From: Gonapodya sp. JEL0774
Lineage: Eukaryota; Monoblepharomycota; Monoblepharidomycetes; Monoblepharidales; Gonapodyaceae
Direction: 5' to 3'
NCBI GenBank assembly: GCA_027604505.1
Contig: JADIIX010000004.1
Span: 248,001-312,000, forward strand
Length of the DNA: 64,000 nucleotides
Position numbers and translations under genes: made by a program. The notes beneath the pieces were generated by a model. That model was not told where the DNA came from. It did no database searches and worked only from the letters and a program-made list of their open reading frames with translations. Positions 14,239-25,037 of the stretch are shown here, piece by piece (position 1 is the stretch's first letter; the number at the start of each line of letters is the position of its first letter).

Positions 14239-14806
14239 GGTACGATGCGGCACCTAAGGGAAATGGATGAGAAGAGAAAGGGAGATTTGTCACAACATAG
14301 AAGAAGAAGGAAACACAGGACAATATTGATCCTTAGAAAAGATGAAAGAACCGTCTTCAGCAAATATGTCAAAGTTTCGATCACTGCTCATCAGTCCTCT
14401 TGATATATCACGATCCAGATCCATTTTCCAAAGCCATAAGTACCCATCTTCAGCAGTATCATCTCCCAACAATTGGAGCTTTGGACTATCAAAAATCATT
14501 CCATGTTGATTGTGGAAACTCACGGTGTTGGCGGAGAGGCAGACAAGATGTCCAAAGGGTGTTGGTTTGGGAGTGGGGCTTACACCTTGGGGTGATCATC
14601 CCATACATCCTTACGAGAGTAACAAATTTTCACACTATAGACGCCGGGTACGTCATGCACGCGACAGAGAGCCCGAGCGTAGTTGCTTTCTGCTGACGTT
14701 CTGACAGGCGAAGACGAAGGAGAACCTCGCCTGAAACCGATCACACCCGGCTTTTGCAGACTTGTGGCTCGACATGGGGACAACTGCTAGCGAGGAATGC
14801 CAAACG
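14239..14806. promoter_or_regulatory. divergent intergenic region
   Basis: Separates the minus-strand MAPR gene (start 14238) from the plus-strand mucin-like gene (start near 14807), so it should contain both promoters. I see no conserved site or repeat in it. Confidence 0.35.
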
Positions 14807-17800
14807 ATGCTCAGTCTTTGGAATGCGATCTGTTTCAGCTCTCTGCTCAAACTACTTCTGGCATTGATATGCTTCTCCTCCCCCGCTCTCGCTTTTGATG
14901 GTACCACAGCAAGGTCGCACTACCCGGGAGAACTTCGTTTGGTGATCCGCCAAGTCGCCCTCACAACCACAATTCCATCCCAATTTCTCGTTGGTGCAAA
15001 GACTAAAACAACGACGACAACCTACACAAGAACCACTTCGAGTACGCTGACTACTGACGGTCCCACACGTGAGAAAACAATTAAGATCGCGCTTTCGACT
15101 CTCTCGACTTACGACTTACGACTTATGGGTAAACGTTGATTTCAGCGTCAACGACGCCCCTTGTCACAGCTACTCGCTCCACGCTCTCCTCAAGTACCTC
15201 GTCTGTGACATCGACTCAAACATCCTCCCAAACTAGTTGGACAGTCTCTTCAAGCTCCACAAGTAAGAATTCAAGTTTATACTCGATCGTCATATTCGCA
15301 TGAATTGAGTGTTGTGCTGTGCCACTCTCACAGCAAGTCGGGCGTCGACAACATCTTCACTCGGCACTTCATCATCATCGACTCGAACAACGTCCGAAAA
15401 GAGTACGACGATCACCCCAAGCTCCACAAGTAGGCAAGTTTTTGGAAGCTGTATCTTGGAACTCATCTTAATTTGCGGGGTTCTCCGCTTGTTGGTCATC
15501 CCAGTAGCTCCTCCGACTACGACTGTCAGTCCTACCACAACGCGGACCTCCACTGCGTCCTTAACTAGCATTCCTTCGTCATCGACTCGAATTGTGTCAC
15601 AATCGAGTTCCACAAGCACCACAATCTCTACAAGTAGGACTCCAGTCTAAATCAAGGCTCAGTACATCTTAGTTTACGGATTTCTCTTGCTCATTTATCA
15701 CGCCAGCACTCCTGTTGATTACTAATGCTAGCTCTACCACAACTCGGAGCTCTACCTTGTCCTCAGCCAGCACTCCTTCCTCGTCCACTCAAACTTTGTC
15801 CCAACCAAGTTCCACCACCGCCTTAAGCTCCACCAGTAAGAATACACCTCGAAGTTTGAAGTCAGACTCCATTTTTCATGGATATTTTTCCTTCATTGGT
15901 TGTGCCAGCACTGCAGCTGAGTACAACCCCTAGTACTTCTGCAACGCGGACCTCCAGTGCGTCCTTAACGGACACTCCTTCGACGTCTACTCACACGTCG
16001 GTCCAAACGACTTCCACAAACACTCTAAGCTCCACGAGTAAGAATTTCAGAAACTGGAGCCTCGGGCTCTCTTAACAGTGAAAATTTGTCTCATTGGTTA
16101 TCTCAGCCGTGCAATTGACCACTACTGCGAGTCCTACCGCACCTCATGCCACAACTCACACCTCTACTTTATTCTCAATCAGCGCTCTTTTGTCATCCAC
16201 TGAAACGTCGTTTCAACCAAGCTCAACGAACACCTTAAGCTCCACCAGTAAGAATGCAATTCGAAGATTGAACGTTAGACTCGCGTAACTCGTGGACTTC
16301 TCTCCTTCATTTTGATATCCCAGCACTGCTGCTGAATACAACCACCAGTAGTTCCACAACCCGGACCTCTACTGCGTCCTTCACTAACACTCCGTCGACA
16401 TCGACTCTCACGTTGGTCCAAACGACTTCCACAGCCACCTTAAGCTCCACAAGTAAGAGCTTATGCGAAGACGAGCCTCAGACTGTCTTAACTTACGGAT
16501 TTCTCTCTCCATGGTTATCTTAGCGATAATGTTGACTAGTAGCGCCAGTTCTATCTCAACTCAGAACTCAACTGTGTCCTCAACGAGCACTCCTTCGCCA
16601 CTCACTCAAACTTTCTCCCAACCAAGTTCCACAGGCACTTTAAGCTCAACCAGTAAGAATACAATCCGAAGCTTGTAGTTCAGACTCTGCTAAAACATGG
16701 ATTTCTCCACTTCATTTGTTATTCCAGCACAGCAACTGACTCTCATTGCCAGTTGTTCTACAACGCGGACCTCCACTTCGTCCTTAACTGACACTCGTTT
16801 GACATCGACTCACACGTGGGTCCAAACGAGTTCCGCAAGGACGCTCAGCTCCACAAGTAAGAACTAAGAAGAAGCTCGAACCTCAGACTCTCTAAATTTA
16901 CGGGTTACTTTCCTATTTATCTCCAACGACATCCCAAGCAGTGAAATCCCTTCTGTTAACCAGCGCTATCTCCGAGACTGCGACGGAATATTCGACCGTC
17001 ACAAATGCGGGTGTGTGATGCGCGAATGACTGTATCTTTTTGATCCGGATATGTATGGATGGCTGCTTTTTAATTGCAGTTGAAGCGTCTAGCTCCAATA
17101 CAGTAGCCTCGGTCGGGGCAAGCAGCACAGAAGCCGTACCGCCGGACACTATCCTTCCATCATCCGTGTCTCTCTCTCGTACATTCGAAAGCTCCGCCAC
17201 ACCAACGAATGGTACGACATTGATTCCTCCCACGAACTCCTCTTCAGTTCTTGTTATCGGAGGTGCGACTGGTGCAGGTGTTTTGGTTACTGGTGCAGGC
17301 GCGTTTGTTGCTGTCAGCAGAGCCCGCCGGAAGCGGAAGCGACGTCATCGCCATCACGTAGTCGAACCTACATGTGAACCTGTTAAGGATAATTCTGGCT
17401 CCATGGATGTTGTTGGCTCGATAGGGATGAGCCTCACCAGTTCGGATCGCCTTGGATCCGCTGGTTCAGGCTATCTGGGTGATAGTCAAAGTGTCTGGAG
17501 AATTGCAGGATCTTCGAGTCGCCCTGCGACTTCAGCACCTCGTCCCTTGCCTCTTGCGCGACTCCATCCAGGCCGAAAACGTCAAGCCCGCGTCGTCTCG
17601 CCGTCTGTTGGTACTCTTTCAATGTCTAGCAAAGAGATGAACTCCAGTCAGTCAGTCTCCCCGTCGCAAGAGACAATGGGTAGTGTGCAAGGAGAGCCGC
17701 TCTGGGCATCGGTGGAGCTGCGTATCAAGAACTTTTTTACTAGAGCAGCAGCTACCATCACGGCTCCTCCACAAAACGATATCACTGAGATTCCGGGGAC

Positions 17801-19466
17801 GGAAGATCCTATGCTGAACTCTGAAATGGAGATTGGGAGCTCTCCTGAAGTTGAATTAGAGAGAACTGAATCCACACCAGGAGCCTTAAACGCCTCTCAA
17901 GTTCAGAGTGAATTTCTTTCTTCAGATGCTTTAGGCCCAGTGAGCGAGCGTCCACTTCATGTGCCAATTATTGATGGTGATAATCTGTTTGGTCAAAAGC
18001 ACCAACCTGGGGTAGAACTCTTGTCTCGATACTCGGTCGATCCCATGCGAGCTGAACCTGTGGTTGTACATTTTAATCGATCACACGAGGGGCGTCCACA
18101 GAGGATTGATCTTGTTTCAACCCTCTCTGATGAATCAACGGTAGTTGATCGTTACGAACGTACTCATGAGATGACACCTGTGACCTTTAAACCTTCAAAT
18201 GAGCCTCTACAAGTTGAAACGGCGTCTATGGCGATGGATCAACGAAGTGAAAGCTGCCCTATTGAAAACAATGTGATTCCAACATTGTTGGATTCCCCAC
18301 CCCGCAATCATTTCACTGACCATCAACCTACATTTGTCATGAAAGACCAGTGTTCAGATGGAGGCGTGGAAACTGACGTAGTGCCTCCATTGACGACTGG
18401 GACTCGTATGTCCCGCCAATTATCGAACGACTTTGTTCAGCCACTGTCAGATGCCCCACGCATGGACCGAAAGGACCAATGCCTGGCAAAGGAAGAGACG
18501 GAACTAATAGATTCTCAAATTGAAGGACGACTCAGTCACGTTGAATTTGCGTCATCTCTGATTAATAGGGCACCTGAGGTATTCGGTGTTGCACAGGCTC
18601 CTGCTCCAGAACCGACCGACGATTCAACCGTTCCCCCAGACTATGGGCAACTCAACAATGTGGACCACCTTAATCAACCGGGGGTGACGATTGAAAATGA
18701 TCTTCTGGAAGGAAACCTGACCGAACAACATATTCCTGACATTGAACTTGTCGACTGTGCATCACCCGATGAAAACAAACCACTTCAACATCCCTCAGCT
18801 GCACGAGATCGGCCTCGGCTCTTCTTCACGGCTGACACAAGATTGCGCGATAACAATCGTTCTGGCTGTGTACTGGACGGTGATTCTCATTTCGAGACAA
18901 CAACGAACAACACACCAAACATTGTGGGGATTCGGGCAGATCCTCTCCTGTTCCAGCGGCGGAACAAGCAAGCATCTCGCACTTCGCAAGAACAGCTCTC
19001 TAACTCTACATCGAGTTCAAGAGAGCAACAACTTCGCGAATCAGGGGGGAATAGTCAGTCAAACGAATCTGAGACTTGGAGTCTCAAAAATGAAGCCCTC
19101 TCCCTCATAAGTTCGTCCCGTATGCGAGATCTGCCACCCCAATTGTTTTCCAGGAGTCCATTGCCCGTTCAACAACCGCTATTCGATCAACCGCGAGGGT
19201 TCTCCGACTCAAAAACACCGATCTCCGCTAGTCGAGCAGACAGATTGTGGGACGAGATTGATAACATTGCAGAAGAAGTGCATGACCGGGTTCCAGCCAT
19301 GCGCCCTTTGACGACCCAGGGGGAGGGACGATCCGGAACCGAAGTCACTGAGAAAGACGTCAGGCGACGACGACTGTCCTCAAGAGGCTCATCTATGAAC
19401 TCCAATGCCGCCCAAGGAAGGAGACAATCTGATAGTTGGCAACCTCCGGGACCTTGGAAACCGTGA
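14807..19466 (+). CDS. mucin-like single-pass membrane protein
   Basis: Unrecognised family; architecture is clear. A hydrophobic signal peptide (MLSLWNAICFSSLLKLLLAL to the Ala-rich cleavage region) starts at 14807; in-frame ATGs at 14762 and 14774 are alternatives. Ten consecutive small exons (15146 to 17010) then encode Ser/Thr-rich mucin-like units. The final exon (from about 17081) carries more Ser/Thr, a transmembrane segment VLVIGGATGAGVLVTGAGAF and a basic stop-transfer RARRKRKRRHRHH. A cytosolic tail of over 650 residues, polar and apparently disordered, ends KP at 19466. The layout (signal, O-glycosylatable stalk, one TM, long tail) is that of fungal wall or surface sensors such as Wsc or Mid2, but no WSC or other domain is visible. 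All exons in the array are phase 1-1. Expression and splicing are inferred from frame only. Confidence 0.75.
15146..17010 (+). repeat. tandem exon-intron repeat array (10 exons)
   Basis: Exons: 15146-15262 (117 nt), 15334-15429 (96), 15505-15633 (129), 15707-15835 (129), 15909-16037 (129), 16107-16247 (141), 16324-16452 (129), 16524-16652 (129), 16728-16856 (129) and 16942-17010 (69). Every length is a multiple of three and every junction is phase 1. Almost all donors read (C)CAC(A/C)A|GTAAG or GTAGG. The start-to-start distance in the regular part is 198-217 bp, so exon and intron were duplicated together. Exon types alternate: 15505, 15909, 16324 and 16728 share RTS(T/S)-x-S(L/F)T, while 15707, 16107 and 16524 share (S/F)QPSST. 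Confidence 0.85.
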
Positions 19467-19650
19467 GGCAAACGAGCGGAGTTGGCGGGAATCGGAAATA
19501 TGCATCAGAATTACTCATCCTCATCACTGTGATTGTATAGTGTTGTTAAATTTTGAATGCAAGATAGAAGGCAGGAAATTCAATACATAGGGGATGGACG
19601 AACCCGCTTACAACATTTCATTTTTCAAAGATCGATCTCGTAGCCTGCAA

Positions 19651-22600
19651 ATGGGATCTCACCCGCAGATTCAGCTGGTACCGCTTGGTGAGTCTCGTCA
19701 TTGCTTCTAAACTTGGTTGTTCGGCTTTGCTACGCTCACCGACCTGTTTGCGGACTCTTCACTTGATCTGGTCACTATGACGACCCACTCAACACTATGA
19801 TGACCCACTCATCATTTGACTACTCGTGTGGTCAATTGCATTTGTCAATTTGAAATCAAATCAATGAAAAACTGCCTCTCCTGAACGGCAACGGGTTCTC
19901 TCTGGAATCGTGGAAACATCATTTGACCATTAGGCGCGGGACAGGACGTTGGCCGATCTTGCATTTTGCTGAGAATGGGCGGAAAGCACATCATGCTAGA
20001 CTGTGGTATGCGTGAGTGCCTTCACGATGTCGGAACTCTGAAATTGGACTCCCATTGAAACGCATTCCCGGAACTTCTTGAAACCCTGTCAAATACTGCG
20101 ACGATGGCGTAACATAAAGACATGGGCTACAACGATGACCGACGCTTCCCTGACTTTTCGTATATTGCCCCGTACCACCCTGCAACAAATTACACATCAA
20201 TGATTGACTGTGTGATCATCTCCCACTTCCACCTTGATCACTGTGGGGCGCTTCCTTTCTTCACCGAGTGTCTTGGATATGACGGACCTGTGTACATGAC
20301 TCACCCAACCTACAAAATAGCTCCGATCCTTCTCGACGATTACAGGAAGATTACAGTGGAGAAGCGAGCAGCACAGGGCCAAGAAGTCAAGACCAGTGCC
20401 GGAGCTTCGACCCCCGGCTCTGTCGGAAGTGCAGTCAGTACCTCACAATCACCTGAAAGCAACGAACATTCTGGGCGAAGCCTGCTCGCACAAATCACGC
20501 CGGACACATTTTTCACAGAAGGAGACATTAAGAATTGCATGAAAAAGGTCATTCCGATTGATGTCAATCAAGCTATTCAAGTTGATTCCCAACTTACGAT
20601 ACGACCTTATTATGCTGGACACGTGTTGGGAGCAGCTATGTTTCATATTCAAGTCAGCATCCCGGCCATTAACTCTACCACATGTCCTTCTGCTTCGTTC
20701 ACGTTCCACCCGTATAATACGCCCTACCTGCCCCATCCTACTTTGACGTGTGTCTACACGGGCGATTACAACACCACGCCCGATCGACATCTCGGTCCGG
20801 CTCAAATAGATCGCTGCCGCCCTGATGTACTCATCACAGAGACAACTTACGCAACTTTCACACGCGATTCCAAACGCACACGCGAACAAGCATTTCTCGA
20901 GGCTTGCCATCGAACTGTTTCTCAAGGTGGCAAAGTACTGATACCTGTTTTCGCATTAGGGCGGGCACAAGAATTGTGCATTCTGGTAGAAGGATATTGG
21001 GAGAGAATGGGTCGAGAGCTCCAGAATGTTCCTGTTTATTTCTCCGCGGGTCTCACCGAGAAGGCAAACGACTATTACAAGATGTTTCTGCAATGGACTA
21101 ATGAATCACTCAGAGTTAACTTTGTAGATCGAAACCCGTTCGATTACAAGCACATTCGGTAAGTTCAACAACAACCATTTTCTCCGAGCACCGCAAATCC
21201 ACTGAAACTGCCTTTGGCCTGCGTATGAATCGGTTTCAAATGAATTCACCCGTTTTCTGAGACCATTCACCAATCTCTCATTGGCCGATTCTCCGGGCCC
21301 GATGATTCTCTTCGCTACACCCGGCATGCTTCACGCTGGTGCCTCTCTGACAGTGTTTCTCAAATGGTGCTCCAATCCTCTCAATGCAGTCATACTACCG
21401 GGCTATTGTGTTCCAGGCACTGTCGGGGCACGTGTTCTAGCAGGAGAGCGAGTTATACCACTGGACAGATGGACGAACGTGGAAGTGAAATGCAGTGTGT
21501 ACAATATGAGCTTCTCTGCTCATGCTGATGCCAAGGGGATAATGTCTCTTATATCCGCGTGTGAACCCAAAAATGTGGTGTTGGTTCATGGGGAAAGGTC
21601 AAAAATGAGCACATTGAAGGAGAGGATTGTCAAAGAGAAAGGACTACCGTGCTTTGACCCTGGGAATGGAACCACTGTTACAATTGAGGTTGGTAGGAGC
21701 TTGGTTGCACGATTGGATCGCGAACTTGTGGTCGCAGCTTGGAGGGAGGAAGCCAAGCGACGCAGAACGCAGATTGAGATGACCAGTGTCGGAAAACTGC
21801 ACTCGACACCAATGCCGATTGGAGCAATTGATGTCTCTGAGAGGGTGATCACCTCTCATGTGAGTCATATTGACTCGCGTGACGTCGCTGTCCCGTGGGA
21901 CAGTACTGGCCGTGCAATATCCACTGTGACTTCTGCTATACCCCTCTCGGCTGCGCTCCTGTGGGATCGCACGGTCCTGCCTCGTGTGGACATTGGCGGG
22001 CTTTTCAACACAAGTCCCCCGCAACCAACCCTATCGACTTCTCAGGTCGCCCCGCCTCCTCTCGGGCGGCCCCATCTGATGCAGAGGATCCGAGATCCCA
22101 TTGTTTTAACAAAGAAATCAGGAGATGAAGAGACCCCGACATTAGAGCGTTTATTCCCTACAAAGCCTGTGGACTTGGGAGCTGGTATCCTGACAGTTAT
22201 AGATCCCTTGGATGCTGCGCAGATAGTTCAATCTAAAAGTTTGCAAGGACTCTTGTCGAAACCAAAAGTGATCCCGTCCACATCTCAGCCGGACCGGGCG
22301 TTATCTGTATTTGGAAGCGATCCTGTTGGACAACAATGGATCTACCACAGACTGCGAAAGCCTTTCAATTTAGCCCGTCTATATCTGTCAATGCTCAAGG
22401 AGCCCGACTTTCTCACGCCAAACGGATCCGTTAGCTCGTCCGGAACTAATTTGTCCGCACGAGTCAACACACGTCTCGCTGAGCGGATTTATTTGAGCCT
22501 TAACGAGTATGTTGGATCGGTGGAAGGGATTTCTGTGCGATTGGAGAAGCATGAGTCCCACAACGGCCAGAACATTCTCGCCACCATAATAGTTGGTGAG

Positions 22601-23002
22601 CCGCACCTCCTCCCGCCAGCTTTGCGTGAAAACTACGCAGACATTGATCCCGGCATTGTGGTTGTGGAAGTAAATCGACCACCCAGCACCGAGGTGCACT
22701 TCCGCTGGGTGGAGTGTGTTGGATCTGGTGCGAAAATGTGGAACATTGTAGGAGGGATTCAAGGGAGTGCCAGCGAGGACTTATCAGAGGAACTGGAGAA
22801 CACTGAAAGTGATCAAAAGGAGGATGGTGAGCTAGCCGACGATATGGACATTGCTAAAGATAATGCACAATTAGGAGTTCTTTTTGGAGGAGGCAATGGT
22901 TCTGACCGGAAGCGCTCCGTCAATGTCGAAAAATCTGATACAAACTTGGATGTGTCCAGTCTCGCAGACAGGGTCATGACGGTGGTATCGTGGGCACTAT
23001 GA
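19651..23002 (+). CDS. Integrator endonuclease INTS11-like MBL/beta-CASP protein
   Basis: Exons: [13 protein letters not shown] (from 19651), [20 protein letters not shown], a long exon to about 21160, and a last exon from about 21270 to 23002, joined in frame. It is a metallo-beta-lactamase/beta-CASP nuclease of the CPSF73 superfamily. The zinc motif is [12 protein letters not shown], with [83 protein letters not shown] and [31 protein letters not shown] is the INTS11 wording, not that of CPSF73/Ysh1. Two inserts relative to human INTS11 are seen, one Ser/Thr-rich (about residues 130-160) and one before YTGDYN. The C-terminal half after the nuclease is long and ends in an acidic tail. INTS11 cleaves snRNA 3' ends and nascent Pol II transcripts in the nucleus. 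Active-site residues look intact. Confidence 0.9.
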
Positions 23003-23121: not shown

Positions 23122-25037
23122 ATGTCACATCAGCATCAAGGCGGAGGCCGGTCACAAGATCGAGGAATCATTAGCGACATATTTAATCAGTTTGTTCACC
23201 CACCGCAAGGTGGGAAAACAAGCGGTCTCTTCAATACCGACTGTGAAAGTCTTCAGAAGGGAAACTGAGCCCAGACTCTTTCTTTGCAGGCAGTAGCGGT
23301 CAAAGGCCAATTGGTAAGATCTGGATTGAGGTATCCGACGTCACCCACACTGAAAATCTTGAGAATGGGCTTTGATTCACTATCGCTTCAGTTTCTGCAC
23401 CAAGTGATGACGTTTTCGCACAAGCAATGGCAGCAATGGGACCCCCACCTTCTGATTTAACAGGTGGAGGAGGTAATGGTGGATACGGTGGTGGGATCTC
23501 TTCTCATTCTGGTGGATATGGTGGGAGCTCGGGACAGCAGGCGGCTTTCGGGTCTAGCAATTCCGCCCCCTCGGGCGGTCTTGGTTAGTTACCACTGAAG
23601 ATGTACTCGGGCGATGTGAATGTTTCATTCCATTCAAACTCTCCCAGTCGCTCCGCCCGGCAATGATCCATTCGCACAAGCCATGGCGCAGATAGGTCTC
23701 CCTCCCGGTAACTCCACAATTGCAAGTGGATACGGAGTAGGAAGCTCAGGACTTTCTGGAGGATACGGAGGTGGTAGCTCGGGGTCTACAGGGGGTCTCG
23801 GTGAGTTGTCACTCACTGTCGCATGGGATGTGAAAGCACTCATTAATTTTCATGATTCGATTCTAAGTGGCTCCTCCAGGAAATGATCCATTCGCACAAG
23901 CCATGGCGCAGATAGGTCCCCCTCCCGGTAACTCCACAATTGCGAGTGGATACGGAGCAGGGAGCTCAGGATTTTCTGGAGGATACGGAGGTGGTAGCTC
24001 GGGGCCTACAGGGGGTCTTGGTGAGTTTCACACACGGTGGGATGTGAAAGCACTCATGTTAATTTTTATGATTCTAAGTGGCTCCTCCAGGAAATGATCC
24101 TTTCGCACAAGCTATGGCGGAGATAGGCCCACCACCAGGTGGAAATAACAGTGTTTATGGCTCATCTGCCGGAGGCAGCGCGGTTTATGGAGGAGGGAAT
24201 GGAGTGGGAACTGGAGGCGGGCTCAGCTCTCCATCCATGGGTGGCGCTGGAGATTCTTCTGGTGAGTACATGAGTATTGATTCGAACCGCAGCTGCAACT
24301 TACTATCACTTGTCACTATTTGCAGCCAGCGGCATTCTCGGTGTGTATAATTTATTTCGTGGCAGTTTCATAAACGCACGTTGAGTTCCTGGGCTCTCAT
24401 GAATGTTCAGGATCACTCCTTGGTGGTGGTGGAGGTGGTGGCGGTAGTGGAGGGCTCTTGGTGTGTTTGAGGGTTTTGTTTGTTTGGGACTTTATGGGGT
24501 TTGATGGCGATTTCACTTTCCCAGGCGATGATCATACCATTACTGATTTCTGCAATGAGCGGCGGAAGTGGCGGCGCTTCAGGTGCTGGTGGTGGTGGTA
24601 CTGGAGGGTTTGGTGTTGCAAACCTTCTTGAAATGGTCAGTGGTCAGTGGTCGCGTCCATTTAATGCTGTTAGAGTGTTGACATGATTCCTATATCCCGC
24701 CCCATACTTCGTCACACTAAGTTTGCCGGAACAAGCAGTTCCCAGACTGGTGGTGAAGGCAACCCTCTGGCAGCTCTCAGTGTAAGTACTGCCTTCTCCA
24801 ACTCAAAACGTTTTTGCATATCTTTACCTCCCTCTTTTGGATGTTGTGTAGGGTCTGCTAACAAAGGGTGCGCAAAATCGTGGAATGGAAGTACCTCGTG
24901 CGTTGCCCAACTACAATGAGCGAGACATGCAGGCGCTCCACAGAGAGCTCGCAAATCTTGGTTATGTCCTAGATCCTCAGCAAGGGCTGAGGCCTATATT
25001 CAATCAAAATTATGCCCAGGCCGGAAATTGGAGATGA
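23122..25037 (+). CDS. Gly-rich protein with duplicated NDPFAQAM exons
   Basis: Unrecognised family. The chosen start MSHQHQGGGRSQDRGIISD gives GIISDIFNQFVHPPQ and splices in phase 1 to a short exon GSSGQRPI. Four repeat exons follow (23392-23583, 23648-23800, 23868-24020, 24079-24261), each opening V(A/S)APP or VAPPG(N)DPFAQAM and then Gly/Tyr/Ser-rich. A 15-nt candidate exon (24326-24340) and further Gly-rich exons lead to a conserved-looking, non-repetitive end, GLLTKGAQNRGMEVPRALPN then YNERDMQALHRELANLGYV, with the stop at 25037. No signal peptide or transmembrane segment is seen, so it is probably intracellular. The Gly/Tyr/Ser composition would suit a condensate or structural protein, but that is a guess. 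Confidence 0.65.
23648..24261 (+). repeat. tandem exon-intron duplication, near-identical copies
   Basis: Exons 23648-23800 and 23868-24020 are both exactly 153 nt and nearly identical. The next copy, 24079-24261, shares the first part. The introns after the first two are also copies: both contain GGGATGTGAAAGCACTCAT, and both end in ATTCTAAG. Exon starts are 220 and 211 bp apart. The duplication therefore included intron and exon together and looks young. Confidence 0.85.

Follow-up and report, generated by a model that had tools for sequence, protein, structure and literature searches.

The window, a 64,000-nt stretch at 248001-312000 of contig JADIIX010000004.1 in the Gonapodya sp. JEL0774 assembly (25.0 Mb, 381 contigs), within which all positions below are counted, carries at 14807-19467 on the forward strand a predicted gene of 12 exons and 1282 amino acids with a single terminal stop. 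All 11 junctions of this model are phase 1, and every splice site was placed from the sequence alone; an in-frame ATG further upstream, at 14774, is an alternative start for exon 1. Hydropathy of the whole predicted protein rose above 1.5 in only two separate peaks, one at residues 7-25 and the other at 544-562. The first reads as a predicted signal peptide, and the second, within residues about 543-566, reads as a single predicted membrane span, with a stretch rich in Arg, Lys and His after it. Ser and Thr make up 290 of the 513 residues of the predicted outer part, and the stretch 15146-17010 very likely encodes the stalk within a single ordinary spliced gene, the product being a predicted type I membrane protein. 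With a predicted signal peptide, a long Ser/Thr-rich stretch and one span all present, a mucin-like membrane protein is a plausible identity; the stalk would presumably be O-glycosylated and might act as a spacer or a sensor. Types of fungal signalling mucin or stress sensor include Msb2, Hkr1, Wsc and Mid2. A Pfam scan of exon 1 and exon 12 returned no family above the cut-off.

The gene appears to be single-copy, with one locus found in the one assembly. A 621-base DNA query for a paralogue or second array of the stalk family gave three matches in the assembly, all in its own array, and the tail protein matched the assembly in one place only. The spaced donor pattern was matched seven times on the forward strand, always in this array, and never on the reverse strand, and a backward control gave 0 and 0. 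Among the 7992 candidates scored in each search, which were those sharing most short words, so that a distant relative may be missed, the only homologue of the tail at E <= 0.001 was its own deposited protein, and a piece of the tail had no match at E <= 10. That protein, HDU93_006690 (17637-23002), and the tail are 100% identical in a match that covers 54% of the region used as query. Its start, at 17637, lies inside exon 12, so that neither the membrane span nor any of the array is included, and it runs into the next gene, whose Pfam domains (PF16661, PF07521, PF10996 and PF00753) we take to be parts of a CPSF-type nuclease. HDU93_006690 is probably a mis-annotation in which the tail was fused with the downstream nuclease-like gene, an example of a deposited gene model without the surface half of its gene.

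Table 1 Predicted features of the stalk gene and of a second array in the window
Feature	Position	Strand	Description
Exon 1	14807..15068	+	Predicted start, signal peptide, onset of Thr-rich region
Exon 2 (E2)	15146..15262	+	117 nt, diverged copy of the repeat exon
Intron 2 (I2)	15263..15333	+	71 nt; no detectable kinship to the array introns (3.4 bits, E 4.3)
Exon 3 (E3)	15334..15429	+	96 nt, diverged copy of the repeat exon
Intron 3 (I3)	15430..15504	+	75 nt; first intron related to the array; without in-frame stop
Unit 4	15505..15706	+	E4 (15505-15633, 129 nt) and I4
Block D1	15707..16106	+	E5 (15707-15835), I5, E6 (15909-16037), I6
Block D2	16107..16523	+	E7 (16107-16247), I7, E8 (16324-16452), I8
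Block D3	16524..16938	+	E9 (16524-16652), I9, E10 (16728-16856), I10
Exon 11 (E11)	16939..17010	+	72 nt, phase 1; not a copy of the repeat exon
Exon 12	17080..19467	+	Stalk end, one predicted membrane span, basic stretch, predicted 716-residue tail after the span, stop
Glycine-rich array, four exons	23392-23583, 23648-23800, 23868-24020, 24079-24261		192, 153, 153 and 183 nt, phase 1, hand-called

Frame and junctions of the stalk exons

An earlier note on this DNA had described ten symmetric exons at 15146-17010, and in the predicted model all ten lengths (117, 96, 129, 129, 129, 141, 129, 129, 129 and 72 nt for E2-E11) are indeed multiples of three with phase 1 at both ends. Six of the ten are exactly 129 nt and start where the note had placed them, at 15505, 15707, 15909, 16324, 16524 and 16728. 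These six copies lie in register at spacings of 202, 202, 415, 200 and 204, in agreement with the proposed period of about 200 bp, the spacing of 415 arising because the 141-nt exon E7 sits inside it. E7 is 12 nt longer, in frame, than the 129-nt exons, and E2-E10 vary in length only by multiples of three (96, 117, 129 and 141). Use of the CAG acceptor at 16941 would shorten E11 to 69 nt and leave it in frame. Introns I2-I10 are 69-82 nt long and are spread over all three length classes, and every intron of the predicted model has GT-AG ends. The donor contexts, which had been called nearly constant, are so for nine of the ten array exons: in E2-E10, GTAAG (seven) or GTAGG (two) is preceded by TCCACNA, TCTACAA or TCAACCA. 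E11, with GCGG and then GTGTGT, departs from this pattern.

The coding frame across the array is clear. In the gene frame, E2-E10 contain no stop and encode 63% Ser/Thr; the other two frames have 18 and 11 stops and encode 8% and 12% Ser/Thr. Without splicing, 15146-17010 is open in no forward frame, the stops numbering 17, 21 and 20, and the spliced frame is open across 1282 codons. A read-through stop is present in nine of the 11 introns and absent from introns 3 and 5. Since I3 is 75 nt long and free of in-frame stops, its retention would keep the frame; that of I5, which is also stop-free, would not.

On paper, as had been proposed, any of these exons can be removed without a frameshift, and every pairing of a donor with an acceptor among E4-E10 gives Thr or Ile. 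Such interchangeable junctions, along with an I3 that could be retained in frame, would suit alternative splicing of the symmetric exons, by which one gene would make stalks of different length. We consider this unlikely, given that exon symmetry is the automatic result of a duplication history, that donor and acceptor contexts are alike in all copies and that, by look, no exon is marked as skippable. The arrangement is better read as the product of tandem copying, and that the predicted introns are in fact spliced is something we infer.

Kinship of exons and introns, and the copied unit

Homology among the copies was assessed by a leave-one-out procedure, in which a profile was built without one copy and then used to recover that copy. 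All 15 held-out copies were recovered in place, comprising eight of eight introns (I3-I10; E 0.014 to 2.6e-10) and seven of seven exons (E4-E10; E 3.1e-18 or better), with I3 and I4 recovered over their last 40 bases only. The claim that exons were duplicated together with their introns therefore stands, by these held-out profiles, for the seven exons E4-E10 and the eight introns I3-I10. It does not extend to all ten exons, E2 and E3 being exon copies only and E11 no copy. A profile built from E4-E10 only matched E2 at 15162-15262 (38.3 bits) and E3 at 15320-15429 (41 bits), and found nothing else in the window. E11 was missed by this profile and gave z-scores of -1.0 to 0.9 against E2-E10, and for this exon the view that all ten are copies was rejected. 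The match to E3 extends 14 bases past the predicted acceptor into I2 (15320-15333), and the E3 acceptor may have moved into former exon sequence.

Intron pairs were also scored directly against shuffled sequences, after their outer donor and acceptor letters had been trimmed off. The pairs 5-7, 5-9 and 7-9 scored 7.1-7.9 standard deviations above the shuffles, these three introns being 73-76% identical, and pairs among introns 4, 6, 8 and 10 scored 1.3-6.4. Pairs across the two classes scored 1.2-5.9 standard deviations and intron 3 against introns 4-10 scored 0.6-5.1. Introns 1, 2 and 11 had no detectable kinship, at 2.9 standard deviations or less against any other intron.

The repetition expected from the earlier description was evident when the array was compared with itself, where a match at offset 404 ran over 991 columns at 71% identity (E 9e-128). 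At the further even offsets the matches were 72% over 679 columns (818) and 76% over 117 (1223), and at the odd offsets 64% over 1371 (204), 67% over 372 (616) and 67% over 320 (1019); three short self-matches from exon 2 (61-63 columns) were 75-80% identical. Tandem Repeats Finder reported a 405-base period in 2.9 copies; with a 2000-base period limit the program missed the main array, and its silence elsewhere means little. In a tree of units, each unit being an exon with its following intron, U5-U7-U9 (93/97) and U6-U8-U10 (87/91) grouped together, and the same two groups were found in an exon-only tree (89/94 and 91/97), although no fork in the unit, exon or intron tree reached the strict mark of 95/80. 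The intron-only tree was unresolved, its sole named fork (67/80, weak) joining introns 3, 6 and 8 and leaving 4 and 10 with 5, 7 and 9, a grouping that departs from the exon classes by placing I10 with I5, I7 and I9. Among 35 possible splits, the alternating one ranked first for exons and second for introns.

The simplest reading of these data is probably three two-unit blocks, D1, D2 and D3 of Table 1, which are 78.5% (D1-D2), 77.1% (D1-D3) and 76.5% (D2-D3) identical. The start of the block cannot be fixed, because a shifted register (E4-E5, E6-E7, E8-E9) gives 74-79% identity, and blocks compared out of register are still 70-74% identical, a high baseline. The segment E3-I3-E4-I4 is 76.4% identical to D2 and 72-73% identical to the other blocks, so an older fourth block is possible and the number of blocks is not fixed. 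Duplication by single units throughout was disfavoured for the last six units, since the long even-offset matches beat the odd ones. The single exon-intron pair that had been put forward as the unit was thus probably not the unit of the later rounds, in which, from the self-matches and the tree, a two-unit block of about 404 bp appears to have been copied. On the right-hand side, the intron-profile match stops at 16922 inside I10, the rest of which is unlike the other introns. The right edge of the copied DNA therefore seems to lie within an intron, as would be expected if the breakpoint fell in one.

Divergence and history of the array

We consider it very likely that the stalk was lengthened by tandem copying of exon-intron blocks followed by divergence. 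The coding frame, the phases, the homology of seven exons and eight introns, the block structure and the divergence are supported by computation. An ancestral 129-nt, Ser/Thr-coding phase-1 exon with its adjoining intron would have been copied head to tail into a short array, after which a two-unit exon-intron block would have been copied at least two more times, giving at least three blocks (15707-16938). The recombination behind these steps we infer to have been misaligned (unequal) recombination or replication slippage between neighbours, which leave sequences that cannot be told apart. Copying that runs between equivalent intron positions gains complete exons with no change of phase, and this accounts for the likeness of lengths, phases and splice contexts; because each block begins and ends in the same codon phase, the added blocks would have lengthened the stalk without a frameshift. 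Selection would then have kept the frames open and, more loosely, the Ser/Thr-rich composition, while the copies diverged by substitution.

Within-class exon pairs had dS of 0.25-0.48 and dN of 0.15-0.49, and dN/dS ran from 0.40 to 1.97 over seven such pairs (E7 was omitted for its insertion), with values above 1 in two of the 15 exon pairs computed in all. This range indicates that constraint on exact residues is loose. Ser/Thr content lay above that of a random-substitution simulation (P < 0.05) in three of six exons from a six-exon consensus and in three of four from an A-type consensus, with no effect for exon 10 (P 0.30 and 0.44), in a design whose starting point, a consensus, itself favours high Ser/Thr. 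Selection is judged here from the gene's own copies only, as the tail searches found no relative outside the genome among the candidates scored.

The term coding minisatellite, used in the earlier note, overstates the likeness of the copies, for the blocks are 76.5-78.5% identical and single exons among E2-E10 54-82%. With no near-identical neighbouring copies, the array looks old and, to judge by its divergence, at rest. A hypervariable exon-intron minisatellite that is still live, its copy number often changing so that strains and alleles differ in stalk length, is accordingly rated as quite improbable. Its units are frame-neutral and its junctions interchangeable, and differences in number have been reported for Cryptococcus CNN00420 (PMC2395259) and Schistosoma SmPoMuc (PMC2576457), but recent exchange should leave near-identical neighbours, and here the best exon pair is 82% identical and the best block pair, in either register, 79%. 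The second array of the window presents the contrast, the exons of its copies 2 and 3 sharing 93% identity and the introns 95%.

Insertion of introner-like elements into an intronless coding repeat would also yield mutually similar introns at equivalent places, as seen here. We judge it highly unlikely, because the exons and introns repeat in step at offset 404 and because the intron profile had no matches in a 200-kb sample from other parts of the genome. Neither that profile nor the exon profile gave a match up to E 10 in this sample, and in the window the intron profile found only I3-I10 and the 3.4-bit piece of I2. Two single introns searched as DNA against the whole genome also matched only themselves, which excludes close copies only, since such searches missed even the 73-76% identical copies next door. 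Similarly remote is a tandem repeat, of period about 202 or 404 bp, that is decayed or non-coding and has no introns at all. The one deposited model found with the tail query does leave out the array, which would suit this reading, but a single spliced frame runs through all 1282 codons, E2-E10 are Ser/Thr-rich and free of stops, every intron has GT-AG ends and the lengths of E2-E10 differ only by multiples of three. Tandem copying of exon-intron blocks thus remains the preferred account.

Known systems and other repeats in the genome

Growth of genes by exon-intron copying is already known in other fungi, and the Gonapodya stalk is a new case that is ordinary in kind. The likenesses drawn here are of arrangement and not of ancestry, the proteins having been compared by description only. 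In Cryptococcus neoformans, the ~107-nt repeat of CNN00420 holds a whole intron and varies in number among strains, and ESTs support its splicing (PMC2395259). Both are fungal single-copy genes, and the CNN00420 unit consists of exon ends and a whole intron, such that extra units add introns; however, introns 3-5 of CNN00420 are identical and its unit is ~107 nt, whereas in Gonapodya the copies are diverged and the unit spans about 202 or 404 nt. Coccidioides SOWgp is cited in PMC2576457 as having the same exon-intron repeat arrangement with nearly identical repeats. It too is a fungal cell-surface protein gene with repeated exons and introns for which unequal crossing-over is invoked, but its repeats evolve in concert and are polymorphic in number, unlike the diverged Gonapodya copies. 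The stalk appears as a diverged end-state of a process described as younger and polymorphic in Cryptococcus and Coccidioides.

Outside the fungi, Schistosoma mansoni SmPoMuc has a 27-bp exon and flanking intron in tandem, so that, as in the stalk, the repeats of a mucin-type protein are separate exons copied with their flanking intron (PMC2576457). The SmPoMuc unit is about 1 kb, more than 93% identical and part of a multigene family, whereas the Gonapodya exons are mostly 129 nt, 54-82% alike and in a single gene, and no homology is claimed. Arrays of equal-length exons with introns of one phase are also found in Tetrahymena LRR genes, where the exons are exactly 90 bp, more than 96% of them are flanked by phase 2 at both ends, and unequal crossing-over, possibly with retrotransposition, is suggested (PMC6564038). 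There, however, about 72,000 such exons encoding an LRR protein are spread over the species studied, compared with one phase-1 array encoding a Ser/Thr stalk in Gonapodya. In teleost piccolo b one exon was amplified 8-16 times, with diverged copies in several species, and unequal crossover was proposed; that likeness is limited by its being a fish gene with a zinc-finger domain that grew in single-exon steps (PMC3484663). Among the literature matches listed there was no such case from the Monoblepharidomycetes, and the stalk gene is a clean, well-preserved example from this fungal branch, in which a boundary of the copied DNA can apparently still be seen within I10.

The glycine-rich array of Table 1, with introns of 64, 67 and 58 nt, was not matched by the stalk-exon profile and had no homologues at E <= 0.01 among 7993 candidates. 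The high identity of its copies 2 and 3 marks it as recent, and it is a better place than the stalk array to look for length variation. The two arrays belong to different genes, and some 6.4 kb separates the last position of the stalk array, 16938, from the first of the glycine-rich array, 23392. For comparison, 20 segments of 10 kb sampled from the genome were compared with themselves (matches of at least 60 columns, offsets up to 2500), and local repeats were found in five of them (L010, L013, L019, L020 and L023), and in none of these did the frames, judged by eye, show exon-intron units in tandem. That two genes here carry such arrays, one old and one recent, against none of the five sampled repeats, might point to a local tendency in this part of the genome to grow genes by phase-1 exon-intron blocks, with stalk length a heritable trait in exon steps, a suggestion to which we give little credence.

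Repeats of other kinds were seen along the way. At L020:1025-1349 there is a direct repeat of 177 bases, its copies 95% identical, in which all six frames contain stops, and at L010:8864-9510 a short-period repeat (30/90/120-base) with a long open frame and without a visible exon-intron pattern. Within the window itself, a tandem repeat with a period of about 105 lies at 1312-1646, in 2.7 copies that are 72-79% alike.
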